Positions 1 to 64,000 of a stretch of DNA of 64,000 nucleotides are shown here, in pieces (the stretch's first letter is position 1; each line of letters starts with the position of its first letter). Source of the stretch: Meghimatium bilineatum (lineage: Eukaryota; Mollusca; Gastropoda; Stylommatophora; Philomycidae); the NCBI GenBank assembly GCA_034231615.1, contig CM067312.1, forward strand, positions 9,274,696 through 9,338,695, given 5' to 3'. The notes under the pieces are model-generated. The model saw only the letters and a list, made by a program, of their open reading frames with translations, was not told the DNA's origin and ran no database searches. A program made the translations under genes and the position numbers.

Positions 1-65
1 AAAAAGGAGAGAAGACAAAACTAGAAGAAAGGGTTAATCAGGGGAGGACTGTAATGTCTAAATGA

Positions 66-235
66 TTCTGTGTAAAAAAAAAATAATAATAATAACAAAA
101 CAAACAAAAAATAATAATAATTACAATAATAACGATAATAAAAACAGCAATAATAATAGTTATAAAAATAATAATAACAATACTTATAAAAATAACAATA
201 ATGATAATAATAATAATAGCAGTAAAAATACTCCT
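66..235 (+). repeat. A/AAT-rich low-complexity tract (block A)
   Basis: Imperfect runs of AAT, AAC and AATA units. The counterpart at about 45365-45530 differs in length. The poly-Asn or poly-Tyr frames across it are composition artefacts. Confidence 0.9.
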
Positions 236-451
236 GTACTACTAACAATACAAGTTATGTGGACGTGTTATGTAGATAGTGTTGCAGACATCGGTACAAC
301 GTTCAAGGAAATTTCTCTGTGTTTAGCTTTGTGGTTGCTTTGCAGTGTGTAGTGCGGGTAAACATTTCTCTCGTATGGCAGACTTACTAGCGATATGGTT
401 ACAGACGTTTACCATTTAATGGAAGTTGTAGAAACACCGACGTATTAGTTA

Positions 452-605
452 CCACCTCCAAAGTCGGATGTGTCAGGCTATTGACGCAAATAAAACGACG
501 ACGCAATGTATTTCCGTTCTTTTAGCTACATACTGCTGGAAATTTAGTAGGACCATCGTCCTGCTACAAGAGAGATCCGACCAGAGTGTGAGAACAAGCG
601 CTTAC
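452..605 (+). mobile_element. SINE relic, short subtype of the (GAA)-tailed family
   Basis: The motif AAGTCGGATGTGTCAGGC, a central hairpin (GTAGGAC / GTCCTGCTAC) and GTGTGAGAACAAGCGC line up with the 162-bp SINE at 52848-53009 (read on its minus strand) and with the distal half of the longer copies at 29048 and 39109. The (GAA)n tail has decayed and I see no target-site duplication, so this is an old copy. Present in both blocks (45752-45905). Confidence 0.7.
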
Positions 606-811
606 ATGTAACAGAAATATACACTGTATAAGACATTCCAATCAACGTTTGTATAATTATTAGGCACAACTAATACAGCAAATCAAATCGGCAGCACAGT
701 ATGGACAATCAACAATACAGTATGATTGCAGGTTCGTAGATAAGGAGAGGGAGATTATGGTCTTCAAACCCTACTTAACAAATTTGAACAAAATTTTAGT
801 ACTAGGAACGT

Positions 812-1120
812 GACCAAGAGGTCGCACGAAATATCCCGTCACCAAGATGTCGCACAAAATATCCCGTTAAAAAGAGGTCGCACGAAATATCGCGTCACCA
901 AGAGGTCGCACGAAATATCCCGTCATCAAGAGGTCACATGAAATATCCCGTCACCAAGAGATCGCACGAAATATCCCGTCACCAAGAGGTCGCACGAAAT
1001 ATCCCGTCACCAAAAGGTCGCACGAAATATCCCGTCACCAAGAGGTCGCACGAAATATCCCGTCACCAAGAGGTCGCACGAAATATCCCGTCACCAACAG
1101 GTCGCACGAAATATCCCGTC
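812..1120 (+). repeat. 28-bp minisatellite, 11 copies
   Basis: The unit contains GGTCGCACGAAATATCCCGT followed by CACCAAGA. 309 bp equals 11 units. The counterpart array in block A' has 30 units. Open frames through it are repeat artefacts. Confidence 0.95.
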
Positions 1121-1289
1121 AAACAGGAAAATTTGCATACGAAAACGGACTAAAGACCTTTTTTCGAAACTCTCTTCTTAAGGTAATCATATCTAGTACT
1201 CTGAGACAATGTGTAGTGCAATATGGACAATCGGTTTTCAAAGCACAAACAACTTCTACTGAGTTGCTATTTTGTGAAACCGCCCACTA

Positions 1290-1488
1290 ACCAGATGCCA
1301 TGCCACAAATGGCCATGACACATAGACATAACGGTTATAAAGCCAGAGGCAGACCATGTAAAAGATGGATCACAGAAATCAAAGAAGCAACAGAATTAGC
1401 TAACAAACAGCCCACAAGAAGGCCATCTCCAGAGAACTCTTCCACCCCTGACGGCAAACAAGGGCTACAGCGTACAGATAGATAGCCC
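1290..1488 (+). pseudogene. Non-LTR retrotransposon C-terminal relic (block A)
   Basis: The + frame reads GRPCKRWITEIKEAT, the basic GRPRKRW-type tail at the C-terminus of many RTE/Jockey-like LINE polymerases, then ends at a GATAGATAG tail near 1485. The fragment at 37320-37490 shares RKRWITEIKEA and the same kind of tail, so both come from one LINE family. No RT catalytic motifs remain. Counterpart at about 47117-47325. Confidence 0.65.
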
Positions 1489-1489
1489 A

Positions 1490-2440
1490 CTAACCTTCTT
1501 ACCATCAAGCTGAAGCACATTATGGAACCAGGAAAACAAGATTCATATCTCAAATTTAAAAGGACAGATATTCTTGTGATGTAAAAGCGGCTCTGCCGAA
1601 CCACAAGACCACCAAGACTTTCTTCTGGAGACCCAGCGGTCCAGTCCACAGCTGCTGATAATGTATAAGCTTGAATGTTAGTGAGGCATTGAAGGAAAAC
1701 ATGATGACTTAGAGGGAAATCAAGTAATCGGGGCATAGAGTGGTTCAAACTCTTTTATTTATTTTTTTTTTTTTTTAAAAGCCATCCAACGTCGTACCAG
1801 ATATAATATCAATTTAAAACCAAGAGTGGCACATTTTTTTCACGCTAAATCACTTCCAAAGTAACATTTCAGAAATTACAATATGGCACGAAATCGATCG
1901 TAGCAAAGATGCTGACGGAACTATGTTGCCAGCTAATAATATTTTGAAACAAAATAGCGGCTTTTGCTTGATATTGCCAAGGGACACAAATTTGATTTTG
2001 ACACATATTCGAAAAACAGGTTTCTTCTTAATATAATACGTGTAAAGTCAATTCAGTTGATGCGAACTATTTATCACTCTTTTCCTGAATCAGAAAGCGT
2101 GTATAGTAGAACACGCTACATTACCGATTTTAAGAAATAAAACATTTTTATTACAAATATTTCATTGTTAATTTCATATTGCCAGACAATGAATTATGTG
2201 TCTTGATTCGTTTTTTTGGGGTATTAGAATAGTCGATTATTGATATCTCATTGCATAGACGTGATATTGGAGAAAATAATAGCAAAAACTTGATATATCA
2301 TGTGTGTACTAAAATGTTATTAAGGAAGCTCTGGGGGTGGAGTTCATTCACATACCATATACCGGATGTGGGCAACAGTTCAGGTCGGCGGGCCGGGTTT
2401 TGCTTATTTCGTACGGTATTGGTAGTAGTAGTACATTTGC
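1490..2440. other. Unique AT-rich sequence, no gene seen (block A)
   Basis: I see no domain, splice-like exon or transposon termini here. From 1741 to 2240 it is almost identical to 47581-48080. A T-run lies near 1760. The final 100 bp contains the left arm of the inverted repeat that flanks the ACT array. Confidence 0.6.
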
Positions 2441-2444
2441 ATAT

Positions 2445-2476
2445 CACTACTACTACTACTGCTATTACTACTACTT

Positions 2477-2520
<44 letters not shown>

Positions 2521-3702
2521 GTCACTACTACAAATACTACTACTTCTACAACTACTACACTACTACTATTACTACTATTACTACTACTACTACTACTACT
2601 ACTACTACCACTACTACTACTACTGCTACTACTAATACTACTATTGCCACTACTACTAATACTACTACTATTGTCACTACTACTAATACTACTACTGTCA
2701 CTAACTACTACTACAAATACTACTACTTCTACAACTACTACTACTACTGCTACAACTGCTACTACTTCTACTGCCACTACTTCTACTACAACTACTACTA
2801 CTGCCACTACTTCTACTACAACTACTACTACTGCCACTACTTCTACTACAACTACTACTACAACTACTACTACAACTACTACTACAACTACTACTACAAC
2901 TACTACTACAACTACTACTACTACAACTACTACAACTACTACTACAACTACTACTACAACTACTACTACAACTACTAATACTACAACTACTACAACTACT
3001 ACAACTACTACTACAACTACTACTACAACTACTACTACTACAACTACTACTACAACTACTACTACTGTCACTACTACTACAACTACTACTACAACTACTA
3101 CTACTGTCACTACTACTACAACTACTACTACAACTACTACTACAACTAGTACTACAACTACTACTACTACAACTAGTACTACAACTACTACTACTACAAC
3201 TACTACTACAACTACTACTACTGTCACTACTACTACAACTACTACTACTGTCACTACTACTACAACTACTACTACAACTACTACTACAACTACTACTACA
3301 ACTACTACTACTACAACTACTACTACTGTCACTACTACTGTCACTACTACTACAACTACTACTACTGTCACTACTACTGTCACTACTACTACAACTACTA
3401 CTACTGTCACTACTACTGTCACTACTACTACAACTACTACTACAACTACTACTACTGTCACTACTACTACTACAACTACTACTACAACTACTACTACTGT
3501 CACTACTACTACTACTACTACTACAACTACTACTACAACTACTACTACAACTACTACTACTACAACTACTACTACAACTACTACTACAACTACTACTACT
3601 GTCACTACTACTGTCACTACTACTACAACTACTACTACTGTCACTACTACTGTCACTACTACTACAACTACTACTACAACTACTACTACAACTACTACTA
3701 CT
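2445..3702 (+). repeat. (ACT)n / CAACTACTA triplet array, about 1.26 kb
   Basis: Nearly pure ACT triplets, with periodic CAA and GTC interruptions giving 9-12 bp higher-order spacing. Only about 0.38 kb remains in block A' (48278-48660). It yields poly-Thr frames on + and poly-Val on -, which are artefacts. GTAGTAGTAGTA lies just before the array (about 2425) and can pair with it. Confidence 0.97.
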
Positions 3703-3916
3703 GCATACGGTATATGTGAACTTATCACATAAAGTAGACTCAGACTAAGAATGTGACATAGGTCACAGAGTACTACAAGTATGTTTATTTTCGGTATCGT
3801 GTAGTGTTTAGCAGAAAACGATGACAGACCACATTTTTGTCTTCAGCAACATCGTATCTAGGAATTATATTATCAGCATCTTGTTCACCGCTTTACTTTT
3901 TCACAAGACCTAGTAC

Positions 3917-4370
3917 CTATTTCCGTGTGTTATATCAAGCTAGGAACATTTGATAATCTATTTCTGTGGGCTATATCAAGCTAGGAACAGTTGGTAATCT
4001 ATTTCCGTGGGCTATATCAAGCTAGGAACATTTGATAATCTATTTCTGTGGGCTATATCAAGCTAGGAACATTTGATAATCTATTTCTGTGGGCTATATC
4101 AAGCTAGGAACATTTGATAATCTATTTCCGTGGGCTATATCAAGCTAGGAACAGTTGTTAATCTATGTCCGTGGGCTATATTAAGCTAGGAACAGTTGGC
4201 AATCTATTTTCGTGGGCTATATCAAGCTATGAACATTTGGTAATCTATTTCCGTGGGCTATATCAAGCTAGGAACATATGGTAATCTATGTCCGTGGGCT
4301 ATATCAAGCTATGAACATTTGGTAGTCTATTTCCGTGGGCTATATCAAGCTAGGAACATTTGGTAATCTA
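3917..4370 (+). repeat. 41-bp minisatellite, 11 copies
   Basis: The unit includes GTGGGCTATATCAAGCTAGG. 454 bp is about 11 units. Block A' has about 9 (48876-49247). Confidence 0.95.
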
Positions 4371-5354
4371 TAGGTTTTTCATTAAAAAAATTAAACTATA
4401 GGGTGTCTATAACGTCGTGCAATCAGTAGTTGCTTGGATGCTTAAGCAGCCATACCATAGTTACTGCTTTGAAGAACCGAAAACACCAGCTGAGGGTAAC
4501 CGTGGGGATTGGGCACGAAGGTAAATACAGGCTTGTCTTCTCAAGAATATGAAGACTGGTTATAAGAATCTGTTGCTCAATTGCGCGAATACAAAGTAGA
4601 ATGGGTATTGGCGGGTGCATTGAGGGTATTTGTGTGTGTTTTGTTGGAGGGAGAGGGGTGTGTGCTGTTATTATCTGTGTGAGCAATACATTGCAGAAGT
4701 ATCATTGCAGAAGTATCATTGCAGAAGCATAAACTAAAAGTTGTGTATTTATTATTTATCCCCTTCACTCCCCTCCCTATTTTTCTAATCTTCATGCAAT
4801 ATCCTCTGTTATTGTGACCAATGTTCACTATCGTCCTTCGACTATCGCTTCTAACGAAATTTACTTCAACCATTTTGTTAGTCCACATCGGATTTCAGAT
4901 AAGTGGGTTTTTTCCCTCTGACATTACTTATATTTTTCTTCTTTTATTATATATGTGCTGTGATTTTTCCTTTTACTCTCTCTCTCTCTCTCTCTCTCCT
5001 GTTTTTGCCATTACTGTTTTTTTCTCATTTTTCTTTCTCTTATCTTATCTCCCTTATTATCTTCTTTTGTTCCGCTTCACAACTTGATTTTATGTTTATA
5101 ATATTCATTTATTGTTGTTCGTTGTTGTCTTGATGACATTTTTTTTATTCGAAACGTTGTTTGTCCCTGTTGACGTCGTTAGTGTGTTCTGTATTTTATT
5201 GCAAAATTCCCCACATATCTCTGTTTTTTTCTGCTCACTACTCTGTGTTGCATCAGACCCTCACATTTTCCGTACGTTAGGTTGTCTCCCTAACACTGAG
5301 GCTTATTTATCCTTTGATAACAATCAACGCGGATGCAACGTCTGCTGTTCAACG
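4371..5354. other. Unique sequence, no gene seen (block A)
   Basis: T-rich sequence with a CT microsatellite near 4976-5000. Short hydrophobic frames (for example 5112-5381) are weakly conserved between the blocks, but low complexity explains them. Near 5131-5160 there is TTGATGA followed by CGAAACGTTG, a weak hammerhead-like pattern without a pairing helix II. Confidence 0.5.
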
Positions 5355-5362
5355 GGCTGGAA

Positions 5363-5636
5363 CTTGCAATGTTCCCTCTAAGACAAGAGCACACGTTAGC
5401 AAGACTATACCTCCGTGAGCGGATAAGCACCATTTTTCTGCGTAAACATTCTACATAAAAGAAATTTTCTTCTACATTTTCTTCAGCATGTTTATTTAAA
5501 CCAGTTCTACTGTTTATTATAGGAACCTCTACAAACGTTTATATACATACGTATTGTGCACCAAGTTCAAACTCTGTGCGCTAATTGACAGAAATGTGTG
5601 CGCTAGCGCACGGAAGCGCAGCTTAGCGGGAACAAT
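5363..5636. mobile_element. Non-autonomous DNA transposon (MITE), hAT-like
   Basis: The left end has AATGTTCCCTCTAAG and the right end, read inward, has ATTGTTCCCGCTAAG, giving inverted termini about 270 bp apart. The 8-mer GGCTGGAA stands at 5355-5362 and directly after the right terminus at 5637-5644, matching the 8-bp duplication typical of hAT elements. The left duplication sits about 4-5 bp outside the best terminal repeat. No transposase is present. Shared with block A' (50214-50487). Confidence 0.65.
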
Positions 5637-5639
5637 GGC

Positions 5640-6205
5640 TGGAAGGCACTTGCCTTCAGAGCTTTCTAGAAAATAAAATAATGTATTCATTACACTCTGA
5701 TAACTTGGAAATCTATGACATTCGTCCTATGTGCCGTCTTTGGCCCTAGAGGAATAACTAACTAAGTAACTAACTAACACGCTAGTACACCACCAGCTTT
5801 GTTGATTTCTCTTGCCAATGGAAAACTGCACCAGGAAGAGATAGCGTTTCCGAGAAAATGTTCTGGATTATATTCAGAATTTATAACAATTACCTTGACC
5901 TTTTACCTGAATTTTATCTCGTTGTTGACATTTTCGTGTGGAGTAGTCCCTAAAGTTAATGATGTCAGTAATCCTCCATTATTAATGCAAGGAAGATTAC
6001 GAGACATTGATTTAGAATGATACACGTTTCTTTCAATTTATTTAATAGGAAACTAAAGTGTTGTTTCATTTTTGTTTACGACATACACAATGTACTTTAT
6101 AGATGTTTTCTTGTTTTGATGTTTGTGTGGAGAAGGAAGTAATAATCTTCTTCTTAACAAAGATGTTCACAGAAACTCATTTAAGCTGATTGTCTATGGG
6201 AGAAA
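5640..6205. other. Unique sequence with an unassigned open frame
   Basis: The + frame at about 5790-5950 reads VDFSCQWKTAPGRDS and later MFW, loosely like the first half of an Ig fold (B-strand Cys, C-strand Trp). I could not identify firm splice sites, so I do not call an exon. The counterpart near 50640-50870 is almost identical. Confidence 0.3.
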
Positions 6206-6209
6206 CCAG

Positions 6210-6329
6210 ACTAGAACATTTGTTTGTTCATGGGAGTAAGAGGAGTAGAACATTCAGTTTCGCATGAGAGTAATAGTAGTAGAACATTCAGTTTCGCATG
6301 GGAGTAAGAAGAGTAGTTTCGCATATGAG
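6210..6329 (+). repeat. 34-bp minisatellite (type a), left part
   Basis: Units of the form GTAAGAGGAGTAGAACATT followed by a CAGTTTCGCATGGGA-like half. The SINE at 6330-6557 splits the array. Confidence 0.85.
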
Positions 6330-6557
6330 TGGTGCTGGGTTCATTCTCCAGTTGAGGTGGAAATTTTTTTTTAGATCGCAAAGGCTCCCGGGTCGACCCA
6401 GGCTTAAATGGGTACCTGATTAATCCGGGAAGTAAAGACTGCGAGGGAGAGGAGATGGCTACCGTCCTCATTTGGAGAGCCACTGAAAAGTGAGATCGCT
6501 ATTATCTCACACCCCTACGGCATTAACAAATGATATGGGTTACTTTACTTTACTACT
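6330..6557 (+). mobile_element. tRNA-derived SINE inserted in a minisatellite (block A)
   Basis: An insertion of about 228 bp interrupts the 34-bp array. Near its left end it has a pol III B-box-like GGGTTCATTCTCC. It then has CCCGGGTCGACCCAGG and AATGGGTACCTGATTAATCC, body motifs I associate with molluscan tRNA-derived SINEs, and it ends in (ACTTT)n. No clear A box is visible, so it is probably 5'-truncated. The TSD cannot be resolved within the tandem repeat. The same insertion in block A' (51181-51408) dates it before the split. Confidence 0.75.
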
Positions 6558-6895
6558 AAGAGTAGAACATTCAGTTTCGCATGGTAGTAAAGGAGTAGAA
6601 CATTAAATTTCGCATGGAAGTTAGAGGAGTAGAACATTCAATTTCGCATGGGAGTAAGAGGAGTAGAACATTCAATTTCTCACGGGAGTAAGAGAAACAG
6701 AACATTCTGTTTCGCATGGGAGTAAGAGGAGTAGAACATTAAATTTCGCATGGGAGTTAGAGGAGTAGAACATTCAATTTCGCATGGGAGTAAGAGGAGT
6801 AGAACATTCAATTTCGCATTGAAGTAAGAGGAGTAGAACATTCTGTTTCGCATGGGAGTTAGAGGAACAGAACATTTGTTTGTCCTTGTGAGTGA
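6558..6895 (+). repeat. 34-bp minisatellite (type a), right part
   Basis: About ten units with AGTAGAACATTCAATTTCGC, continuing 6210-6329. Counterpart at about 51409-51745. Confidence 0.9.
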
Positions 6896-6899
6896 CATG

Positions 6900-7333
6900 A
6901 CTAGAGCCCTTAGTTTCACAGTTAAGCCGTGACCAATAACGGTACAATAAGACCTCTCAGTAGAAAGTAAACATGACCTAAAGGCTCATTGTTTATTATT
7001 TCAGTGCATTTCGTTGTTCTGCCGTAGCATCATTTTCTGGCAGGATACTCCAATTATAAAGAAAGTGACCAACGAAATCCACACAAAAACCAAGAATCAA
7101 TCAGACAAAACGTCACGAATGGAGTCCTGTTTACATTATTTTGAGATATCTATACTCGAGAAGGTTCATGGTTAAACCACTCTGTAACGCATCCTTTTAT
7201 AACATATTTTCCTATATTAACATTATCACTTATATCCATTCTTCATTGTTGGTACTGTGTATAGCGAATTTCTGTTATTACATGCATATGTCGTCGGTCC
7301 AGACCAAGTTGTTACAATGGGATTTGATTGTAT

Positions 7334-7365
<32 letters not shown>
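6900..7365. other. Unique stretch with an old dispersed repeat and CA/GA microsatellite
   Basis: About 7000-7110 contains TTATTTCAGTGCATTTCGTTG and GTGACCAACGAAA, resembling 11935-12050 and 40695-40790. It is followed by a (GT)n(GA)n microsatellite (about 7335-7370). No gene seen. Confidence 0.5.
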
Positions 7366-7367
<2 letters not shown>

Positions 7368-7372
<5 letters not shown>

Positions 7373-8035
7373 GAGTAGAACATTTATTTGTGTATGGAAT
7401 GATAGAACGGTAACATTTAGTTGTACATGAGTCACCGGCCAAGAGCATTTAATTGTACATCGGGGAAAGAAAGAGAAATAGAACATTTGGTTGGGTACTC
7501 GAGTAAGAGGAATAGAACATTTGGTTGGGTACTGTAGTAAGAGGAATAGAACATGTGGTTGAGTACTGGAGTAAGAGGAATAGAACATTTGGTTGGGTAC
7601 TGGAGTAAGAGGAATATAACATTTGGTTGAGTACTGGAGTAAGAGGAATAGAATATTTGGTTGGGTACTGGAGTAAGAGGAATAGAACATTTGGTTGGGT
7701 ACTGGAGTAAGAGGAATATAACATTTGGTTGTGTACTAGAGTAAGAGGAGTGGAACATTTGGTTGTGTACTAGAGTAAGAGGAGTGGAACATTTGGTTGT
7801 GTACCAGAGTAAGAGGAGTGGAACATTTGGTTGTGTACTAGAGTAAGAGGAGTGGAACATTTGGTTGTGTACCAGAGTAAGAGGAGTGGAAAATTTGGTT
7901 GTGTACTAGAGTAAGAGTAGAAGAACATCTGGTTGGGTACTGTAGTAAGAGTAGAAGAACATCTGGTTGGGTACTGTAGTAAGAGTAGAAGAACATCTGG
8001 TTGGGTACTGTAGTAAGAGGAGTAGAACATCTGGT
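7368..8035 (+). repeat. 34-bp minisatellite (type b), about 20 copies
   Basis: The unit is like GTAAGAGGAATAGAACATTT plus GGTTGGGTACTGGA. Its first half matches the type a unit (6210-6895), so the two arrays share an ancestor. Copy number is about 20 here and about 12-13 in block A' (52225-52650). Confidence 0.92.
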
Positions 8036-8126
8036 TGTACATGAGACAACTAAAGCAATTTAGCTGTATACCAGAGGAACAGGTATAGAAAATATGTGTC
8101 ACGTGCGAGAGATAGGTCTAGAACTG

Positions 8127-8215
8127 TGTTTCCCAGCCTTTTTTTAAAAACCATGCCCCACCTAAGTCTTTCTAAAATTGTTATGCCCCCTCCCTTTTAC
8201 CCATGTAACATATAC
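8127..8215 (+). mobile_element. Possible hAT MITE left-end fragment
   Basis: CTGTGTTTCCCAGCCTTTTT (block A' reads CAGTGTTTCCTATCC) resembles hAT/Charlie-type termini, and a cytosine-rich body follows. No matching right end was found, so this is a truncated relic at best. Confidence 0.35.
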
Positions 8216-8234
8216 ATATTTTTTTAATATTCAA

Positions 8235-8750
8235 AAAATGAATTTTTCCATAAATGAAGACTAATAATAACTTGTGTTTCGCTGATGATATTGATCTTAT
8301 AGCTGGGTCAGTGGAAGAATTACAAGAGTTAACATCAAAGTTGGAAAAAGTTACCAGCAAGTACGGAATGGAAATCAACACAGAAAAGAGCAAGGTATTG
8401 GTTAACAGCAGAGACACAGAAAAACAGACAAATATCATGATGAATGGACATACGCGTGAAATGGTGAATACTTTCAAATATCTCGGATCCAGCATATGCA
8501 GGGATGGAAAATGCAAAACAGAATTAGAGATAAGGCTGGAGATGGATTTAGCTTCTATGTTAATGCTAAAGATGATGTGAAAAAAAGCAACATCAGTGTA
8601 GGAGTAACAGTCAAACTGTGTAAGTCAATGGTGCTTTCTGTTGTGCTGTATGGTTGTGAGAGTTGGACACTCACTGTGGGTATGAAGAGATGATTACAGG
8701 CTTTTGAGTACAAATGCTACAGATGAATTCTACAAATTTCCTATTGGGAA
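8235..8750 (+). pseudogene. RTE-like reverse transcriptase relic, frameshifted (block A)
   Basis: The frame from about 8254 has LCFADDIDLIAGS (RT motif C, FADD in place of YADD), then GMEINTEKSKVLV (motif D region) and FKYLGSSICRDG (motif E region). Near 8500 the coding sense moves to the next frame, which continues to LYGCESWTL, the conserved C-terminal motif of RTE-type polymerases. Both ends are missing and the frame is broken, so it is dead. The shared frameshift in block A' (53040-53540) shows that it decayed before the split. Confidence 0.85.
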
Positions 8751-8759
8751 CATACGACA

Positions 8760-9603
8760 AATGTGTACCCCTACTACCCTGACTCTGTGTGCTGATTCAT
8801 CCAATGTGTACCCCTACTACCCTGACTCTGTGTGCTGATTCATCCAATGTGTACCCCTACTACCCTGACTCTGTGTGCTGATTCATCCAATGTGTACCCC
8901 TACTACCCTGACTCTGTGAGCTGAATCATCCAATGTGGTACCCCTACTACCCTGACTCTGTGTGCTGATTCATCCAATGTGTAACCCCTACTACCCTGAC
9001 TCTGTGTGCTGAAGCATATAATGTGGTACCCCTACTACCCTGACTCTGTGTGCTGAAGCATCTAATGTGGTACCCCTACTACCCTGACTCTGTGTGCTGA
9101 AGCATCCAATGTGTACCCCTACTACCCTGACTGTGTGCTGAAGCATCTAATGTGGTACCCCTACTACCCTGACTCTGTGTGCTGAATCATCCAATGTGGT
9201 ACCCCTACTACCCTGACTCTGTGTGCTGAATCATCCAATGTGGTACCCCTACTACCCTGACTGTGGGCTGAAGCATCTACTGTGGTACCCCTACTACCCT
9301 GACTCTGTGTGCTGAAGCATCTAATTTGGTACTCCTACTACCCTGACTGTGGGCTGAAGTATCTAATGTGGTACCCCTACTACCCTGACTCTGTGTGCTG
9401 AAGCATCTAATGTGGTACTCCTACTACCCTGACTGTGGGCTGAATCATCCAATGTGGTACCCCTACTATCCTGACTCTGTGGGCTGAAGCATCTACTGTG
9501 ATACTCCTACTACCCTTAATCTGTGTGCTGAATCATCCAATGTGGTACCCCTAGTACCCTGACTGTGGGCTGAAGCATCTAATGTGGTACCCCTACTACC
9601 CTG
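8760..9603 (+). repeat. 40-45-bp minisatellite, about 19 copies
   Basis: The unit includes CCCTACTACCCTGACTCTGT and GTGCTGAAGCATCTAATGTG, with 1-5 bp length variants. Block A' has about 16 (53555-54265). Confidence 0.93.
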
Positions 9604-9662
9604 GTTACGAGTTTTTAGTTAGTTAGTTATCGAGACATGAAAAGTACACACAGGAAAAAACA

Positions 9663-9816
9663 CACAAACAGAGGGACAGATTGGTTGATGAATGAAGGGA
9701 CACTAAAATACAACACAAACAGACAGACAGATTGGTTGATGAATGAAGGGACACTAAAATACAACACAAACAGACAGACAGATTGGTTGATGAATGAAGG
9801 GACACTAAAATACAAC
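9663..9816 (+). repeat. 51-bp minisatellite, 3 copies
   Basis: The unit includes GATTGGTTGATGAATGAAGG and ACACTAAAATACAACACAAA. Three units here, sixteen in block A'. Confidence 0.95.
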
Positions 9817-9829
9817 GTAGAATAAATAC

Positions 9830-10390
9830 GATGAATCAGAGAGGAATAGTATCAGAGAAGAATGATGAACGACTGCGCATGGCAAATGACCACTGCCCTG
9901 AATCACCCACGGTTGTTGAAATAATAGGGTAGTGACGAAATACATGTAAGTATCGGATATCGCTTTCTTTATGTATAAGATGTTGCATAGATCTTTCGTA
10001 GAAAGAATTAATCTGTACCCAAGGGGGATTAATTGTGGTGTTGTGTAAAACAAAGGGAGGAAATATTATAAGCTGTGTTGTAAATAAATCAAGATGCATG
10101 ATTTAGTTATGAAGCTGTCCGATTTCGATGTCTGACCAATGAGTTATTCTCTCCCTTGAATACTGCTGTGTTGTTATGTACCCTTGAGATCAGAAAATCT
10201 GTAGGTCAATATGGACGATTGTAAGATTGGAAGATTCCAAAATAGGTTTGATTTTCTAGAAAGTGAGAGTGTTGAAGCTTTGGGGTTCTGGTGGAGATCG
10301 GAGGTTGTGGTGACTGGATTACCAGAACCACGACCTTGGCTCCGCTATATTTTGATGGTGGTAAATTCTGATATTACCAAATTGGATTAA
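9830..10390. other. Unique sequence, no gene seen
   Basis: Nothing recognisable apart from a donor-like ATGTAAGTAT at about 9943 without a convincing upstream open frame. Counterpart at 55165-55735. Confidence 0.5.
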
Positions 10391-10394
10391 CGTC

Positions 10395-10506
10395 CGAAAT
10401 GAGTTGAGTGGAGTGTATCTCAACGTTAGAGTTAAATTTTACTTACTCAACATTGAGTGGAGTATATCTCAACGTTAGAGTTAAATTTTACTTACTCAAC
10501 ATTGAG
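10395..10506 (+). repeat. 49-bp tandem repeat, about 2 copies
   Basis: The unit contains GTATCTCAACGTTAGAG and TTACTTACTCAACATTGAGT. Two-plus units here, three in block A' (55738-55890). Confidence 0.88.
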
Positions 10507-10619
10507 TGGTGTGAGGAGCTTTTTATCTTTTTGTTGTGAGAGATAGTAGCGAGAAATATTGATAAGATAATAAAAAGTTATTAATATTTCCATTAGTTAA
10601 TATGTAAGAGCGTCCACTA

Positions 10620-10787
10620 CATCAGAGCTACACAGTACCATCGTGCCATCGAGCGAACGGACACAAGGCCAATCCACCACTGATACTTGAGTGAGGTAGA
10701 GGTGATCAGAGGCACACAGTACCATCGTGCCATCGAGCGCACGGACACAATGCCAATCCACCACTGATACTTGAGTGAGGTAGAAGT
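10620..10787 (+). repeat. 84-bp minisatellite, 2 copies
   Basis: The unit contains GCACACAGTACCATCGTGCC and AATCCACCACTGATACTTGA. Two units in block A versus about 23 in block A'. Confidence 0.95.
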
Positions 10788-10799
10788 GACAAAATCACA

Positions 10800-53009: not shown

Positions 53010-53039
53010 GTTTTTAGTATTCAAAAATTGAATTTTTCC

Positions 53040-53540
53040 ATAAATGAAGACAATAACAACTTGTGTTTCGCTGATGATATTGATCTTATAGCTGGGTCAG
53101 TGGAAGAATTACAAGAGTTAACATCAAAGTTGGAAAAAGTTACCAGCAAGTACGGAATGGAAATCAACACAGAAAAGAGCAAGGTATTGGTCAACAGCAG
53201 AGACACAGAAAAACGGACCAATATCATGATGAATGGACATACGCGTGAAATGGTGAATACTTTCAAATATCTCGGATCCAGCATATGCAGGGATGGAAAA
53301 TGCAAAACAGAATTAAAGATAAGGCTGGAGATGGATTTAGCTTATATGTTAATGCTAAAGATGATGTGAAAAAAAGCAACATCAGTGTAGGAGTAACAGT
53401 CAAACTGTGTAAGTCAATGGTGCTTTCTGTTGTGCTGTATGGTTGTGAGAGTTGGACACTCAATGTGGGTATGAAGAGATGATTACAGGCTTTTGAGTAC
53501 AAATGCTACAGATGAATTCTACAAATTTCCTATTGGGAAC
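53040..53540 (+). pseudogene. RTE-like reverse transcriptase relic, frameshifted (block A')
   Basis: Counterpart of 8235-8750, with FADD, KYLG and YGCESWTL in the same two frames. Directly upstream, block A' alone has the SINE at 52848-53009. Confidence 0.85.
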
Positions 53541-53554
53541 ATACGACAAATGTG

Positions 53555-54265
53555 TACCATTACTACCCTGACTCTGTGTGCTGAAGCATCTAATGTGATA
53601 CTCCTACTACCCTGACTCTGTGTGCTGAATCATCCAATGTGGTACCCCTACTACCCTGACTGTGGGCTGAAGCATCTAATGTGGTACCTCTACTACCCTG
53701 ACTCTGTGTGCTGAATCATCCAATGTGGTACCCCTACTACCCTGACTCTGTGTGCTGAATCCTCCAATGTGGTACTCCTACTACCCTGACTCTGTGAGCT
53801 GAATCATCCAATGTGGTACCCCTACTACCCTGACTCTGTGTGCTGAATCATCCAATGTGGTACCCCTACTACCCTGACTCTGTGTGCTGAAGCATCTACT
53901 GTGGTACCCCTACTACCCTGACTCTGTGTGCTGAAGCATCTACTGTGGTACCCCTACTACCCTGACTCTGTGTGCTGAAGCATCTAATTTGGTACTCCTA
54001 CTACTCTGACTGTGGGCTGAAGTATCTAATGTGGTACCCCTACTACCCTGACTCTGTGTGCTGAAGCATCTAATGTGGTACTCCTACTACCCTGACTGTG
54101 GGCTGAATCATCCAATGTGGTACCCCTACTATCCTGACTCTGTGGGCTGAAGCATCTACTGTGATACTCCTACTACCCTTAATCTGTGTGCTGAATCATC
54201 CAATGTGGTACCCCTAGTACCCTGACTGTGGGCTGAAGCATCTAATGTGGTACCCCTACTACCCT
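53555..54265 (+). repeat. 40-45-bp minisatellite, about 16 copies
   Basis: Counterpart of 8760-9603. The right-hand units match unit for unit between the blocks; the left-hand units differ, so turnover is polarised toward the left end. Confidence 0.93.
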
Positions 54266-54334
54266 GGTTACGAGTTTTTAGTTAGTTAGTTAGTTAGTTA
54301 TCGAGACATGAAAAGTACACACAGGAAAAAAACA

Positions 54335-55152
54335 CACAAACAGAGGGACAGATTGGTTGATGAATGAAGGGACACTAAAATACAACACAAACAGACGGAC
54401 AGATTGGTTGATGAATGAAGGGACACTAAAATACAACACAAACAGACGGACAGATTGGTTGATGAATGAAGGGACACTAAAATACAACACAAACAGACGA
54501 ACCGGTTGGTTGGTGAATGAAGGGACACTAAAATACAACACAAACAGACGAACCGGTTTATTGGTGAATGAAGGAACACTAAAATACAACACAAACAGAC
54601 GGACAGATTGGTTGGTGAATGAAGGGACACTAAAATACAACACAAACAGACGGATAGATTGGTTGATGAATGAAGGGACACTAAAATACAACACAAACAG
54701 ACGGACAGATTGGTTGGTGAATGAAGGGACACTAAAATACAACACAAACAGACGGACAGATTGGTTGGTGAATGAAGGGACACTAAAATACAACACAAAC
54801 AGACGAACCGGTTGGTTGGTGAATGAAGGGACACTAAAATACAACACAAACAGACGAACCGGTTTATTGGTGAATGAAGGGACACTAAAATACAACACAA
54901 ACAGACGGACAGATTGGTTGGTGAATGAAGGGACACTAAAATACAACACAAACAGACGGACAGATTGGTTGATGAATGAAGGGACACTAAAATACAACAC
55001 AAACAGACGGACAGATTGGTTGATGAATGAAGGGACACTAAAATACAACACAAACAGACGAACCGGTTGGTTGGTGAATGAAGGGAAACTAAAATACAAC
55101 ACAAACAGACGAACCGGTTTATTGGTGAATGAAGGGACACTAAAATACAACG
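54335..55152 (+). repeat. 51-bp minisatellite, 16 copies, higher-order
   Basis: Sixteen units fall into three types: GGACAGATTGGTTG, GAACCGGTTGGTTG and GAACCGGTTTATTG. The last two always occur as an adjacent pair after runs of the first type, giving a higher-order block. Because 51 = 3 x 17 and no stop occurs, several frames stay open on both strands; none looks like a gene. Confidence 0.95.
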
Positions 55153-55737
55153 TAGAATAAATACGATGAATCAGAGAGTAATAGTATCAGAGAATAATGA
55201 TGAACGACTGCGCATGGCAAATGACCACTGCCCTGAATCACCAACGGTTGTTGAAATAATAGGGTAGTGACGAAATACATGTAAGTATCGGATATCGCTT
55301 TCTTTATGTATAAGATGTTGCATAGATCTTTCGTAGAAAGAATTAATCTGTACCCAAGGGGGATTAATTGTGGTGTTGTGTAAAACAAAGGTAGGAAATA
55401 TTATAAGCTGTGTTGTAAATAAATCAAGATGCATGATTTAGTTATGAAGCTGTCCGATTTCGATGTCTGACCAATGAGTTATTCTCTCCCTTGAATACTG
55501 CTGTGTTGTTATGTACCCTTGAGATCAGAAAATCTGTAGGTCAATATGGACGATTGTAAGATAGGAAGATTCCAAAATAGGTTTGCTTTTCTAGAAAGTG
55601 AGAGTGTTGAAGCTTTGGGGTTCTGGTGGAGATCGGAGGTTGTGGTGACTGGATTACCAGAACCACGACCTTGGCTCCGCTATATTTTGATGGTGGTAAT
55701 TTCTGATATAACCAAATTGGATTAACGTCCGAAATGA

Positions 55738-55890
55738 GTTGAGTGGAGTGTATCTCAACATAAGAGCTAAATTTTACTTACTCAACATTGAGTGGAGTAT
55801 ATCTCAACGTTAGAGCTAAATTTTACTTACTCAACATTGAGTGGAGTATATCTCAACGTTAGAGCTAAATTTTACTTACTCAACATTGAG
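55738..55890 (+). repeat. 49-bp tandem repeat, 3 copies
   Basis: Counterpart of 10395-10506 with one extra unit. Confidence 0.88.
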
Positions 55891-55998
55891 TGGAGTGAGG
55901 AGCTTTTTATCTTTTTGTGGTGAGAGATAGTAGCGAGAAATATTGATAAGATAATAAAAAGTTATTAATATTTCCATTAGTTAATATGTAAGAGCGTC

Positions 55999-57930
55999 CA
56001 CTACATCAGAGCTACACAGTACCATCTTGCCATCGAGCGCACGGACACAAGGCCAATCCACCGCTGATACTTGAGTGAGGTAGAGGTGATCAGAGGTACA
56101 CAGTACCATTTTGCCATCGAGCGCACGGACACAAGGCCAATCCACCACTGATACTTGAGTGAGGTAGAGGTGATCAGAGGTACACAGTACCATTTTGCCA
56201 TCGAGCGCACGGACACAAGGCCAATCCACCACTGATACTTGAGTGAGGTAGAGGTGATCAGAGGTACACAGTACCATCGAGCGCACGGACACAATGCCAA
56301 TCCACCACTGATACTTGAGTGAGGTAGAGGTGATCAGAGGTACACAGTACCATCTTGCCATCGAGCGCTCGGACACAAGGCCAATCCACCACTGATACTT
56401 GAGTGAGGTAGAGGTGATCAGAGGTACACAGTACCATCGTACCATCGAGCGCACGGACACAAGGCCAATCCACCACTGATACTTGAGTGAGGTAGAGGTG
56501 ATCAGAGGTACACAGTACCATCGTACAATCGAGCGCACGGACACAATGCCAATCCACCACTGATACTTGAGTGAGGTAGAGGTGATCAGAGGTACACAGT
56601 ACCATCGTACAATCGAGCGCACGGACACAAGGCCAATCCACCACTGATACTTGAGTGAGGTAGAGGTGATCAGAGGTACACAGTACCATCGTACCATCGA
56701 GCGCACGGACACAAGGCCAATCCACCACTGATACTTGAGTGAGGTAGAGGTGATCAGAGGTACACAGTACCATTTTGCCATCGAGCGCACGGACACAAGG
56801 CCAATCCACCACTGATACTTGAGTGAGGTAGAGGTGATCAGAGGTACACAGTACCATCTTGCCATCGAGCGCACGGACACAAGGCCAATCCACCACTGAT
56901 ACTTGAGTGAGGTAGAGGTGATCAGAGGTACACAGTACCATCGTACCATTGAGCGCACGGACACAAGGCCAATCCACCACTGATACTTGAGTGAGGTAGA
57001 GGTGATCAGAGGTACACAGTACCATCGTACCATCGAGCGCACGGACACAAGGCCAATCCACCACTGATACTTGAGTGAGGTAGAGGTGATCAGAGGTACA
57101 CAGTACCATCGTACCATTGAGCGCACGGACACAAGGCCAATCCACCACTGATACTTGAGTGAGGTAGAGGTGATCAGAGGTACACAGTACCATCGTACCA
57201 TCGAGCGCACGGACACAAGGCCAATCCACCACTGATACTTGAGTGAGGTAGAGGTGATCAGAGGTACACAGTACCATCGTACCATCGAGCGCACGGACAC
57301 AAGGCCAATCCACCACTGATACTTGAGTGAGGTAGAGGTGATCAGAGGTACACAGTACCATCGTGCCATCGAGCGCACGGACACAAGGCCAATCCACCAC
57401 TGATACTTGAGTGAGGTAGAGGTGATCAGAGGTACACAGTACCATCGTACAATCGAGCGCACGGACACAATGCCAATCCACCACTGATACTTGAGTGAGG
57501 TAGAGGTGATCAGAGGTACACAGTACCATCGTACAATCGAGCGCACGGACACAAGGCCAATCCACCACTGATACTTGAGTGAGGTAGAGGTGATCAGAGG
57601 TACACAGTACCATTTTGCCATCGAGCGCACGGACACAAGGCCAATCCACCACTGATACTTGAGTGAGGTAGAGGTGATCAGAGGTACACAGTACCATCTT
57701 GCCATCGAGCGCACGGACACAAGGCCAATCCACCACTGATACTTGAGTGAGGTAGAGGTGATCAGAGGTACACAGTACCATCGTACCATCGAGCGCACGG
57801 ACACAAGGCCAATCCACCACTGATACTTGAGTGAGGTAGAGGTGATCAGAGGTACACAGTACCATCGTGCCATCGAGCACACGGACACAATGCCAATCCA
57901 CCACTGATACTTGAGTGAGGTAGAAGTGAC
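55999..57930 (+). repeat. 84-bp minisatellite, about 23 copies, higher-order
   Basis: Units differ mainly at one site (CATCTTGCC, CATTTTGCC, CATCGTACC, CATCGTACAATCG). A run of TACAATCG, TACAATCG, (GTACC), TTTTGCC, TCTTGCC, GTACC occurs twice (from about 56515 and from about 57440), so multi-unit blocks were duplicated. One unit near 56275 lacks 8 bp. The minus-strand frames of 635 and 548 codons arise because 84 is a multiple of 3; they are not genes. Confidence 0.96.
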
Positions 57931-58364
57931 AAAATCACATTTTTATGACAACCCCAACTAGCAACTTTGGACTAGAGTCCACCTTATGGATAGCAATGTT
58001 TGTGACTATAGCAAAATTATGGAATGCCTGCTTTTCTAGAACATTCTAAATTATAACTATTATTTGAATACTCTACATTATTGGTCATGCATGTAGCCAC
58101 ATAGTTGTTAAGTTCAATGTGGATATTCTAGTCTTTTTTAGATATTTTTCAATCCATCACCAGTTCACGAACGGACCACCTGGTCCAATATAAATTAATA
58201 TAGAAACCAGATAGTATGGTAATGTACAGGAGACGGGCGTGAAGCTGACCATATCCTGTTTAAGTTCGTTGTCAGTAGCTAAAAATGGGGGTCTAATTTA
58301 AATATCACATTTTATGGTTGAATTCTGTTCATATGTTATGGAAATATCAGATGTTATGGAAATA

Positions 58365-58975
58365 TCATATGTTATGGATTGGATTCTGTTCATATGTTTA
58401 TGAAATGTCATATGTTATGGATTGGATTCTGTTCATATGTTTATGAAATGTCATATGTTATGGATTGGATTCTGTTCATATGTTTATGAAATGTCATATG
58501 TTATGGATTGGATTCTGTTCATATGTTTATGAAATGTCATATGTTATGGATTGGATTCTGTTCATATGTTTATGAAATGTCATATGTTATGGATTGGATT
58601 CTGTTCATATGTTTATGAAATGTCATATGTTATGGATTGGATTCTGTTCATATGTTTATGATATGTCATATATTATGGATTGGATTCTGTTCATATGTTT
58701 ATGAAATGTCATATGTTATGGATTGGATTCTGTTCATATGTTTATGAAATGTCATATGTTATGGATTGGATTCTGTTCATATGTTTATGAAATGTCATAT
58801 GTTATGGATTGGATTCTGTTCATATGTTTATGAAATGTCATATGTTATGGATTGGATTCTGTTCATATATTTATGAAATGTCATATGTTATGGATTGGAT
58901 TCTGTTCATATGTTTATGAAATGTCATATGTTATGGATTGGATTCTGTTCATATTTTGTGACATATCATATGTTG
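58365..58975 (+). repeat. 43-bp minisatellite, about 14 copies
   Basis: Counterpart of 11206-11790, with one more unit and different private variants. Confidence 0.95.
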
Positions 58976-59327
58976 TGGCAGGATTCTGTTCGTGTGTTTA
59001 TGAAGGAGTTTGTGCTTGGTTCGGAGTCAGAAAATGGTATTTTGATGGCATTTTCTTGTCAGATGGTTGATGGTTTACCTGGCTTCAGTAAATACTGGTG
59101 TACAGAAAAGTGATCATGACCTGAACGGCTGATTTTGATTATTTCCGTGAATTTCGTTGGTAGGCCTTGGATTTTTTGGCATGTGACTTGATATTAGTAC
59201 CAAAATTACAAAATATTTCCAACAGAAATCATGACAATAATTAAAATCGTCACTAATTAACTCTTATTTACTTTTTGCGAGGAAATTTTTACTGCCGATT
59301 GTCTGAGTTAATACCATCGAATGCTAC

Positions 59328-59411
59328 TACATCGGAATGGATACATCGGATTGGATACATCGGAATGGATACATCGGATTGGATACATCGGAATGGATAC
59401 ATCGGATTGCC
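59328..59411 (+). repeat. 14-bp tandem repeat, about 6-7 copies
   Basis: Counterpart of 12147-12217, longer by two alternating units. Confidence 0.9.
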
Positions 59412-59687
59412 TATATGTCTGAACTCCTCTCTGTCAGTGTTGATCATGTCCCAAGCAATACTCTTTACATGATATACGAGAGTATGTCAATAAATGACAC
59501 AGTTGTGACAAGAGCATGTCAATAAGTGACACTGTTTTGACGAGAGCATGTCAATAAGTGACAAAGGTTTGACGAGAGCGTGTGAATAAGTGACAAAGTG
59601 GGGAGGGGTCAAAAAGACTGCTTTCAAAGAACATTAATACGGATTTGCTTCTTTTTTATGCTTTTTATTACGTATATCACTGTGTTA

Positions 59688-59883
59688 TGACAGCTTACGC
59701 TATCCAACATGACATTTGATATTGATAATGATTTTATAACAGCTTACGCTATCCAACATGACATTTGATACTGATAATGATTTTATGACAGCTTACGCTA
59801 TCCAACATGACATTTGATACTGATAATGTTTTTATGACAGCTTACGCTATCCAACATGACATTTGATACTGATAATGATTTTA
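59688..59883 (+). repeat. 49-bp minisatellite, 4 copies
   Basis: Counterpart of 12488-12735, one unit fewer. Confidence 0.94.
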
Positions 59884-60143
59884 ATTCACGAAAACAATGT
59901 ACAAACATATAACAATGAAAGAATATACAATATTCGAAACTTGAAATGAATACAACAAAATAAATGTACACATTATGTCAAGAAATGATGAATGTAAATT
60001 GTTTATCAGCAGAGAACATAATCAGTCAATGTAGTATTTTCTGAAACGTTACACACACGTCATTGAGAAAACAAACCATTTGCAAAAAATATCTATACTT
60101 AAGTTAACCAAACTTGTTCATGCGGAGGGTGGATTTTACAAAT

Positions 60144-60271
60144 TTATATATTGACAATCGATATTTTCTGTTCAAACTTCAATTCCTGTCCGAACTGAGG
60201 CGTAACCAATTCATGATTCAAGAATAGTACTGTATTCATTTTCCCAAATCTTTCTTGATCCGCTTCTGTCT
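60144..60271 (-). CDS. Candidate terminal coding exon, function unknown (block A')
   Basis: Identical in sequence to the candidate exon at 12996-13123, with the same CAG acceptor, phase-1 start and TAA stop. The presumed 3' UTR down to about 59884 differs by only one or two bases. The array that follows has four units instead of five. Confidence 0.45.
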
Positions 60272-60442
60272 CTGCAATTAAGAAAAATAATCAACAAAGT
60301 ATGTGGGTCTAAAACAAATTTGACGGAAACTTGATTGATACCAGCCAGGATTAATGGTCTTTTCTTAAAATATGATTTTCTAAACGCATTTCATTTGATT
60401 CTCCACAAACACACACACATTTATTTACTGGAGTATCTACAG

Positions 60443-60642
60443 TAGCGGTTCTCAACCAGTGGGTCGCTAACCCTTTGGGGGTCGAACAACTCTTTTATAG
60501 GGGTCGCCTAAGACCATCGGAAAACACATATTATGAAGCAGCAATAAAAATAATTGTACGGTTTGGGGAGAGAGGGGGGGGGTCACCACAACATGAGAAA
60601 CTGTATTAAATGGTCGTGTCATTAGAACATTGAGAACCACTA
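60443..60642. mobile_element. SPIN/URR1-like hAT MITE (block A')
   Basis: Same insertion as 13295-13493, with a few substitutions and a different G-run length, so it predates the split of the blocks. Confidence 0.8.
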
Positions 60643-60892
60643 AACTACGTGTTCCAGTTGTTTCTAGATCAAGATTTACTAAATAGATTTATAAAAACGT
60701 GTACTCTACAGAGAAGGTTAGAAATCCTATTCTAGTACTAACTTCTATGTGTACTTTTGATGTACACAGTGCTGAGAATAGTCCAGTTGGACTGAGTCCG
60801 CTGTGTGAAAGGGAGTTCCTAACCATAAGAACATACATTACGACAACAATTGAGGGGAGGGGGGAGTAGGGTGCCAGGGTATTAAACAGTTT

Positions 60893-61757
60893 GACAGTTA
60901 TTGACAAGGTATGACAGTTATTGACAAGGTATGACAGTTATTGACAAGGTATGGCAGTTATTGACTAGGTATGACAGTTATTGACAAGGTATGACAGTTA
61001 TTGACAAGGTATTTCAGTTATTGACAAGGTATGACAGTTATTGACAAGGTATGACAGTTATTGACTAGGTATGACAGATATTGACTAGGTATGACAGTTA
61101 TTGACAAGGTATGACAGTTATTGACAAGGTATTTCAGCTATTGACAAGGTATGACAGTTATTGACAAGGTATGACAGTTATTGACAAGGTGTATCAGTTA
61201 TTGACAAGGTATGACAGTTATTGACAAGGTATGACAGTTATTGACAAGGTATGGCAGTTATTGACAAGGTATTTCAGCTATTGACAAGGTATGACAGTTA
61301 TTGACAATGTGTATCAGTTATTGACAAGGTATGACAGTTATTGACAAGGTATGACAGTTATTGACAAGGTATGACAGTTATTGACAAGGTATGACAGTTA
61401 TTGACAAGGTATGAGTGGTGATGTTGATTGACAAGACATGAGTGGTGATTTTGATGTTGATTGACAAGAGATGAGTGGTGATGTTGATTGACAAGAGATG
61501 AGTGGTGATGTTGATTGACAAGAGATGAGTGGTGATGTTGATTGACAAGGTATGACAGTTATTGACAAGGTATGACAGTTATTGACAAGGTATGGCAATT
61601 ATTGACAAGGTATGACAGTTATTGACAAGGTATGAGTGGTGATGTTGATTGACAAGGTATGAGTGGTGATGTTGATTGACAAGGTATGAGTGGTGATGTT
61701 GATTGACAAGGTATGAGTGGTGATGTTGATTGACAAGGTATGAGTGGTGATGTTGAC
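60893..61757 (+). repeat. 20-bp minisatellite with a second unit type (block A')
   Basis: Counterpart of 13745-14700. It has more variant 20-mers (TATTTCAG, GTATCAG) and a different arrangement of the GAGTGGTGATGTTG units, including a clean five-fold run at the right end. Confidence 0.96.
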
Positions 61758-62011
61758 TTCAACAATACTATATTTATAAACCGATTAATGTGTTTGAATG
61801 TGAAATATCTAAAAATCTTTAGCAAATGGTCATATTTTTTTTCGTATTCGTTCTTCTAACAAAATATTTCGTCTGTGGGTGTGTGAGAGAAAAGGGATTG
61901 GGGCTATACGTTTTTGCATAATTACAAGTTTTTTGTTGATTGAATGTTATTATATCTAGTTGGCTTCATTTTTGGCCAGTAAATGAATTCACTGTCCTTT
62001 TTGTGGAAAAG

Positions 62012-62223
62012 TAATGGTCATGACACCATGTGACACTTCCAACGAGTCGAACGATGTTGAACTGCACGTCCCAGATAACGTACACAATGTTTGGTGTTGG
62101 AATGAATCTAGCTTGGCAATGTTTCAATCTGTCGTTGATTCAAACTATACCTGTACTGCCCAATTTTCCTCTAAGAAAAGTTATATCATAATGTTAGTTG
62201 ATGCGCCCATGTGGTATCTCTAA
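62012..62223 (+). CDS. Candidate Ig-like exon (block A'), low confidence
   Basis: After a pyrimidine-rich CTGTCCTTTTTGTGGAAAAG the frame reads about 70 codons, including WCWNESS and VVDSNYTCTAQFSS. The D-x-x-Y-x-C pattern is typical of the F strand of Ig domains, and NES (twice) and NYT are N-glycosylation sites, which would suit an extracellular domain. Against this, the spacing from Trp to the final Cys is short for an Ig fold, the donor candidate (GTATCT at about 62214) is weak, and block A carries a frameshift. It could be a chance frame or part of a larger gene outside the window. Confidence 0.28.
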
Positions 62224-62310
62224 TGTGTCGTAACATGTGTCGTAACATGTGTCGCAGTAACTATTTCCGTGTAACGTGTGTTTGTTCGATCTTAGCTTTC
62301 ATCTGATATT

Positions 62311-62539
62311 TTTAAAAAACAAAAAACTTTCGTTACTGCATGTTTTCCTGTTAAGGAATGCAGGAAGGCTTTTAAAGCTGTGGAAATAAAGACCGCTTTG
62401 CCAAAGCTGTCGCCGCGACTTGTACAGGAAGAATTTTTTGTTGCACCTCCGAAAGATAACAATCCTTGTCCCAACCGCGGATTGAACCCGGGACCTCAGA
62501 AATCTGAGGCCGGAGTACTAGCCGTACGGCCACGCGCTC
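62311..62539 (-). mobile_element. tRNA-derived SINE with intact A/B boxes (block A')
   Basis: Same insertion as 15288-15482, with the same CATCTGATATT duplications (62300-62310, 62540-62550). Here the B box GGTTCAATCC (minus strand, 62479-62488) and the surrounding CCCGGG are preserved. Length is 229 bp versus 195 bp in block A. Confidence 0.87.
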
Positions 62540-62611
62540 CATCTGATATTGCTCCCAAGAATTTGATGGATTTGGTGAATGTTTTAGGTTTGCTGTTTGT
62601 TTGTATCCTCT

Positions 62612-62890
62612 GCTTCTGCTTCTTCTTCGTTCATTCTCAAACTCCTCCAAAATAGCAGAATGTAGTCCAGAGAACGGAATGTGTTGTGTCATGATTTACA
62701 GCAATGCGATACATGGGCCTTTTGGTCTGACACATCCGACTGTAGCATGGATTTGGGTCATGTTGACTCTATATGGGATGGGACAGCCAACTCCATCGCA
62801 TAACCTCCTTAGTCGCCTCTTACGATATGCATGGTAGGTAAACAGTATTGCTATTCTTTACTCCCCTCTCTGGCCCCGGCAACACACGAG
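62612..62890 (-). mobile_element. SINE, long subtype (block A')
   Basis: Counterpart of 15548-15835, with TTTGTAT on both flanks. Confidence 0.85.
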
Positions 62891-62999
62891 CGGTTTCTTT
62901 GTATGTCTAATTTTATTTTTACATGATCCTTTACTGAAAAGCCTGCCTAATGTTACATTTACGTTAATTGTGAATCATCATTGTTTCATGCACTCAGTT

Positions 63000-63615
63000 C
63001 ATCATCATTATCAAGTGCCGTCTCCGCAACGAATGTGTGATGCAACGTATCTCCAACATCTCCTGGCTCTTGTCTTGGTGGTACACTCTGCTAGACTGTA
63101 ACCTGTCCATCGTGTAATGTTACTCTCCCACTTGTATCTCCGCCTACCTCTTGCTCGCTTCCCTTTGACTTTACCCTCAAGTAAGGTCTTCAATAAGGTG
63201 TCATGTCTTTTAATGTGTCCAAAGTATTTTATTTGCCTGATCTTTATTTCTCTTAGTAGTTCTTTCTTCATATTAAGTATCTTTAGCACCTCTTTATTTG
63301 TTTTCTTCTCTTTCCATGATGTTCTCCCTATTCTTCTATATACCCACATCTCAAAGGCATCAACTTTGTCTTCTAATTGTTTATTTAGTGTCCATGTTTC
63401 TGAGCCATACATTAATATGGAATAGATGTAGCATTTTATAATTCTCATTTTTAACGTGTTTGTAATTTGTTTAGATATGAATAATTTCCTCATGTCATTT
63501 AAGGTACTTTTAGCCAATCCTATTCTCCTTTTAACTTCTATTTCACATCTGCCATCATTTGTGACTATGTGTCCAAGATATTGATACTGTTTTACTTGTT
63601 GTAGTTTCTCTCCCT
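63000..63615 (-). mobile_element. 5'-truncated RTE-type LINE, present only in block A'
   Basis: A 616-bp insertion that is absent from block A at about 15925. It is flanked by CACTCAGTT (62991-62999) and CACTAAGTT (63616-63624), a 9-bp duplication with one mismatch; about 20 bp next to the right side is also repeated. On the minus strand it ends GACGGCACTTGATAATGATG plus ATGA, the ATGATGA-type tail of RTE elements. A related 3' end lies at 20001. Confidence 0.88.
63011..63613 (-). CDS. RTE polymerase C-terminal fragment, open frame
   Basis: About 200 codons are open from the truncation point to a TGA next to the element tail. It begins GEKLQQVKQYQYLGHIVTND (RT motif E region, YLG), then has YGSETWTLN (CESWTL-like motif), FEMWVYRRIGRTSWKEKKTN and FGHIKRHD. 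A basic KGKRARGRRRYKW tail follows, an arrangement seen in RTE-clade proteins after the RT domain. Endonuclease and RT catalytic motifs are absent because of 5' truncation, so the fragment cannot move on its own. The intact frame agrees with a recent insertion. Confidence 0.88.
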   Translation of the reverse strand, partial: GEKLQQVKQYQYLGHIVTNDGRCEIEVKRRIGLAKSTLNDMRKLFISKQITNTLKMRIIKCYIYSILMYGSETWTLNKQLEDKVDAFEMWVYRRIGRTSWKEKKTNKEVLKILNMKKELLREIKIRQIKYFGHIKRHDTLLKTLLEGKVKGKRARGRRRYKWESNITRWTGYSLAECTTKTRARRCWRYVASHIRCGDGT

Positions 63616-64000
63616 CACTAAGTTACCCCATTCCCGCACTCAGTTACCCCGTTAATATACTTTTAGTTAGCTAGTTTTAGAAAGTCTATGTTTCGTCAAG
63701 TACTCAAAATAACCCCATCATCTGTAAATTGAGATAAAAATGATTGGTGGATGCATACATTTTCTAGATCATTGACCATAATTGTAAGAAATGTTGGAGA
63801 TATTACAGCTTTTTGTGGAATTCCATTTTTAAATTTCAGAATATTTTTGAGTAACTTTACACAGTAATATCTATCTTTTATACCGTTTTGAGTACAAACA
63901 TCTTCCTTATATTCCCAAATTTTAAATCTTTAATAGGGTTTCTTTCCTCCAGCACTCACCGTAAGCTCTTGTCGTGTCCAAACGTATGGAGACAGTGTTT

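Follow-up and report, generated by a model that had tools for sequence, protein, structure and literature searches.

The 64,000 nucleotides of Meghimatium bilineatum analyzed here (hereafter the window) contain one block of DNA twice, which raises the question whether this locus was duplicated in tandem or whether two haplotypes of one locus were left unpurged in the assembly. Window self-comparison and a tandem-repeat-masked comparison placed the two blocks in direct, collinear order at 1-16289 and 45294-64000, exactly where a first, sequence-only reading had put them. The homology was found at both window edges, as that reading had also claimed. In the self-comparison, the chain opened with 1-73 against 45294-45366 (100%) and closed with 15941-16289 against 63652-64000 (97.1%); therefore, neither true block boundary is visible within the window. 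The sole run of N, exactly 100 bases long, was confirmed to lie between the blocks. The window is organized as follows:

1-16289, forward strand: block 1, carried by the contig to the left of the gap; the homology runs on to the window edge.
16290-38689, forward strand: left-contig-only DNA, seen in the window on the left contig only and sharing only dispersed repeats with the rest; under haplotype overlap, its allele is predicted to lie right of 64000.
38690-38789, no strand: assembly gap of 100 N, the only gap.
38790-45293, forward strand: right-contig-only DNA, seen in the window on the right contig only; under haplotype overlap, its allele is predicted to lie left of position 1.
45294-64000, forward strand: block 2, carried by the contig to the right of the gap; the homology runs on to the window edge.

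The location of the gap between the blocks is weak evidence by itself, because the inter-block DNA accounts for 45% of the window. To look for a third copy or another overlap, the inter-block stretches of 22.4 kb and 6.5 kb were compared with each other (repeat-masked, E of 1e-10 or better), and only dispersed-repeat matches were detected, namely 29059-29324 with 39119-39382 and 36087-36211 with 39249-39386. Continuity over the gap was also sought, and its 3-kb flanks had three distinct 14-mers in common, all of the TA type. As for a unit-to-unit junction, the stretch between the blocks carries the 100-N gap and the outer block boundaries lie beyond the window. A dispersed repeat of about 270 bases has one copy in each block and another on either side of the gap (15549-15822, 29055-29329, 39118-39380 and 62613-62886). 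Its copies were 82-89% alike among the pairs listed, and a weaker relative (71-73%) is located at 36087-36211.

The unique parts of the blocks had been thought to be about 99% identical, which turned out to be an overestimate. Outside most of the tandem arrays, the identity was about 98.2%, with 177 differences in 9986 aligned columns (1.77% divergence), and a second aligner with a different mask gave 172 differences in 9634 columns. The 177 differences comprised 74 transitions and 103 transversions. The 9986-column alignment also contained 41 indels, each between 1 and 28 bases long; some lie where segments end. The divergence was strongly mosaic along the blocks, ranging from 0.5% to 3.8% by stretch (block 1 coordinates):

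1-1460: 38 of 997 columns, 3.8%.
1461-2445: 5 of 983 columns, 0.5%.
3704-5900: 33 of 1698 columns, 1.9%.
5900-7470: 6 of 1135 columns, 0.5%.
8038-11160: 34 of 1834 columns, 1.9%.
11161-13741: 15 of 1479 columns, 1.0%.
14702-16289: 44 of 1544 columns, 2.9%.

The bounds of these stretches were picked by eye after the counts had been seen, while the fixed-window test was independent of them. Over 19 windows of 500 columns, the variance/mean ratio was 4.53, compared with 0.98 in permutations (p 0.0005); with the 30 columns beside segment ends trimmed, it was 4.09 over 16 windows (p 0.0002). The blocks also shared identical runs of 626 and 616 columns when indels were ignored. Such a mosaic is the pattern expected of alleles whose ancestry varies along a recombining chromosome; it could likewise result from uneven mutation or from gene conversion among paralogues.

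The two blocks differ in length (16289 and 18707 bases), mostly through tandem arrays and through alignment gaps of 176 and 646 bases that are filled only in block 2. Among 17 paired tandem arrays, 14 were unequal in length, although two of them differed by no more than 2 and 5 bases; the other three showed no length difference. The array at 4689-4727 was left out of the 17 pairs since it had no row of its own for block 2 in the repeat-finder list; by alignment, block 2 is shorter there by 24 bases. The summed length of the 17 paired arrays was 6464 bases in block 1 and 8057 bases in block 2. The 51-base array measured 162 bases in block 1 and 825 in block 2, the 28-base array 313 and 843 bases, respectively. 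Two further arrays differed as follows:

56005-57929, no strand: 84-base array in block 2, 1925 bases and about 23 copies, against 169 bases and about 2 copies at 10621-10789; none of the other 17 pairs differs as much in length (1756 bases).
2446-3702, no strand: ACT-rich array in block 1, 1257 bases, against 382 bases at 48280-48661 in block 2.

The low-divergence stretch 5900-7470 includes an identical array (6229-6316) and an array of equal length with two differences (6560-6876). Across the 17 pairs, the correlation between array-length change and local divergence was not significant (Spearman 0.39, n = 17, p 0.12), and array identity in this low stretch was therefore given no weight in the argument.

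The two large alignment gaps correspond to retroelement differences, both of which are present in block 2 and none in block 1 (n = 2):

52836-53011, reverse strand (from the side of the trinucleotide tail): SINE-like insertion, a 176-base alignment gap, block 2 only.
62991-63636, reverse strand: 3' end of a 5'-truncated LINE, 646 bases, block 2 only.

A direct repeat of 13 bases, at 52835 and 53010, bounds the SINE-like insertion. Its empty site lies near 8220 in block 1, where two positions differ from the 13-base repeat, and a relative of the element is found at 454-602 (76% over 149 bases). The LINE end has a 10-base direct repeat at 62990 and 63636, and the empty site near 15924 in block 1 holds a single copy of this repeat. 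Its frame aligned with the end of the reverse-transcriptase ORF at 30994-33798 (43% identity), and the two elements have similar ATG-rich tails. The anatomy of the insertions suggests that both transposed into block 2 after the copies had parted. By themselves, they would fit alleles or paralogues.

We consider it likely that the blocks represent an unpurged haplotype overlap of two consecutive contigs, a degree of belief that is a judgement and was not computed. The window would then consist of two end-overlapping contigs of one diploid genome, the left contig (to 38689) being one haplotype and the right contig (from 38790) the other haplotype of the same place. Changes in array length and retroelement insertions would have set the haplotypes apart so that the assembler left them unmerged, and the scaffolder would have placed both contigs in a row with a 100-N gap, making their common segment read as a direct duplication. 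The copies would be alleles, with 38790-45293 allelic to DNA left of position 1 and 16290-38689 allelic to DNA right of 64000, and the whole overlap would measure about 45-48 kb (45.2 kb counted with block 1, 47.6 kb with block 2). If this holds, the merged order is 38790-45293, block, 16290-38689. The sequence-only reading had offered haplotypes and tandem duplication as alternatives. The haplotype side is favored by direct copies across a gap, divergence in the diploid range and its mosaic distribution, although the sequence of the window is not proof. The blocks appear to differ as alleles usually do, in array lengths, in insertions with empty sites and in mosaic divergence; every one of these differences could also arise between two paralogues. 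That both insertions fall in block 2 (n = 2) and that array-length change shows no significant correlation with local divergence count against the haplotype side.

A genuine tandem segmental duplication in head-to-tail order is in our opinion unlikely; its period would be 45.3 kb measured at the left edge and 47.7 kb at the right edge. Its unit would be the block plus 16290-45293, and its copies, about 1.8% diverged, would have been partly homogenized by gene conversion. The direct and collinear copies suit such a duplication as well. An assembly can itself be interrupted by a tandem array, with a gap as the result, and for such a gap to fall within the inter-block 45% of the window would be no great coincidence. 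Gene conversion is what the mosaic divergence would need here, and the identical runs of 626 and 616 columns could be conversion tracts. Quite unlikely, in turn, is a real tandem duplication of recent origin, no shorter than 16 kb and no longer than about 45-48 kb, with length changes in 14 of the 17 arrays and short tracts homogenized by gene conversion. Matching outer flanks, together with half depth, had been proposed as a refutation of tandem duplication; on their own the flanks would not refute it, since under a head-to-tail repeat of 45.3-47.7 kb period the DNA right of 64000 should likewise resemble 16290-38689, and a flank match alone is thus not discriminating. What does separate the two is where the flank homology stops: haplotype overlap predicts that it ends exactly at the contig ends 38689 and 38790, while after a tandem duplication it should run on past both.

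A real segmental duplication in direct orientation and close by, but not arranged head to tail, would have to exceed 16.3 kb, with its outer breakpoints beyond the window and the inner stretches matching the outer flanks in part. Both homology boundaries do lie outside the window, but this arrangement has no positive evidence and shares the difficulties of a tandem duplication, so that we regard it as very unlikely. Sequencing errors near contig ends can also lead to one haplotype being assembled twice (homotype false duplication). The gap between the copies would suit this origin, but insertions with direct repeats and array differences of up to 1756 bases look biological, and homotype duplications are described as being about read length (PMC8081667); it is hardly credible here. 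Such a read-error duplication was rejected as a candidate, as the differences include apparent transposition events.

Kelley and Salzberg 2010 name the adjacent placement of overlapping contigs from two haplotypes as a class of error (PMC2864568). Among the figures given there are the duplicated overlapping contigs classed as mis-assembled for chicken (5,698 of 5,947), chimpanzee (13,159 of 13,571), cow (1,094 of 1,366) and dog (8 of 22; PMC2864568). The present contigs resemble that class in being scaffold neighbors with apparently overlapping ends; they differ in that the place where the contig ends themselves would overlap is beyond the present window (PMC2864568). Rhie et al. 2021 described heterotype duplications, among them a case of about 1 Mb in a bird whose heterozygosity was 1.6% (PMC8081667). 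The 1.77% divergence of the blocks is close to the 1.6% heterozygosity of that zebra finch, a yardstick taken from a bird and not from the host (PMC8081667). The window resembles a heterotype false duplication, apparently of type 2, in the retention of divergent haplotype contigs in one scaffold, in the gap and in the direct orientation (PMC8081667). In type 2, as described there, the 3' side is joined to the other haplotype (PMC8081667). The class is confirmed by half read depth and haplotype-specific variants, while the likeness here is drawn from sequence alone (PMC8081667). Both copies lie on one scaffold, separated by an assembly gap, and their differences (insertions flanked by direct repeats, array lengths and 1.77% substitutions) look heterozygous in type and unlike read errors. 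Main traits of false duplications given by Ko et al. include half depth, gaps that separate duplicated pairs on one scaffold, discordant read pairs and one-copy k-mers (PMC9516828). Lowered depth can also accompany a tandem duplication present on a single haplotype, and an allele-specific duplication of this kind at haploid depth is reported in the same paper (PMC9516828). In the parts that sequence can test, the window agrees with the published picture of false haplotype duplication. A tandem segmental duplication has the direct, collinear copies seen here; the present copies differ from one in the scaffold gap between them and in that neither breakpoint is visible.

The apparent duplication is thus most likely an ordinary, well-described assembly artefact and not a real duplication. 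If the copies are alleles, the array of about 2 versus about 23 units and the two retroelement insertions represent heterozygosity at one place instead of paralogy, and neither repeats nor genes should be counted twice here. The other differences in the window would likewise be allelic, a useful warning to its readers. The pair would also provide a two-haplotype view of minisatellite change on a background of 1.8% substitution.

The coding content of the window was surveyed by a Pfam scan of 20 ORFs from a list of 162 (stop-to-stop frames of at least 60 aa with under 30% in arrays). Host genes crossing the gap were sought, and none was found among these 20 ORFs; only reverse-transcriptase and endonuclease families passed the curated cut-off. 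These ORFs therefore offered no gene structure by which to test the gap. The matches above the cut-off fell in the ORF at 30994-33798 (reverse transcriptase and endonuclease) and at 8254-8577 (a piece of a reverse transcriptase), while a reverse-transcriptase match at 15988-16203 stayed under it (20.9 against 29.6 bits). A tRNA search of the window (bacterial-code setting) found none, and an Rfam search of the window gave no match at the gathering threshold.

The ORF at 30994-33798 (forward strand) is an unbroken LINE frame of 935 residues encoding endonuclease and reverse transcriptase, and it also matched solved LINE-1 and R2 proteins. It lies between the two copies of a 9-base direct repeat (30992 and 33810). 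The open frame starts at the direct repeat and its first Met is residue 20, from which we infer that the element is probably a fairly recent, slightly 5'-truncated insertion. The left-contig-only stretch also contains a 45-base tandem array at 24669-26188 with about 34 copies and 96% matches, and the GC content is 45% at 24001-26000.
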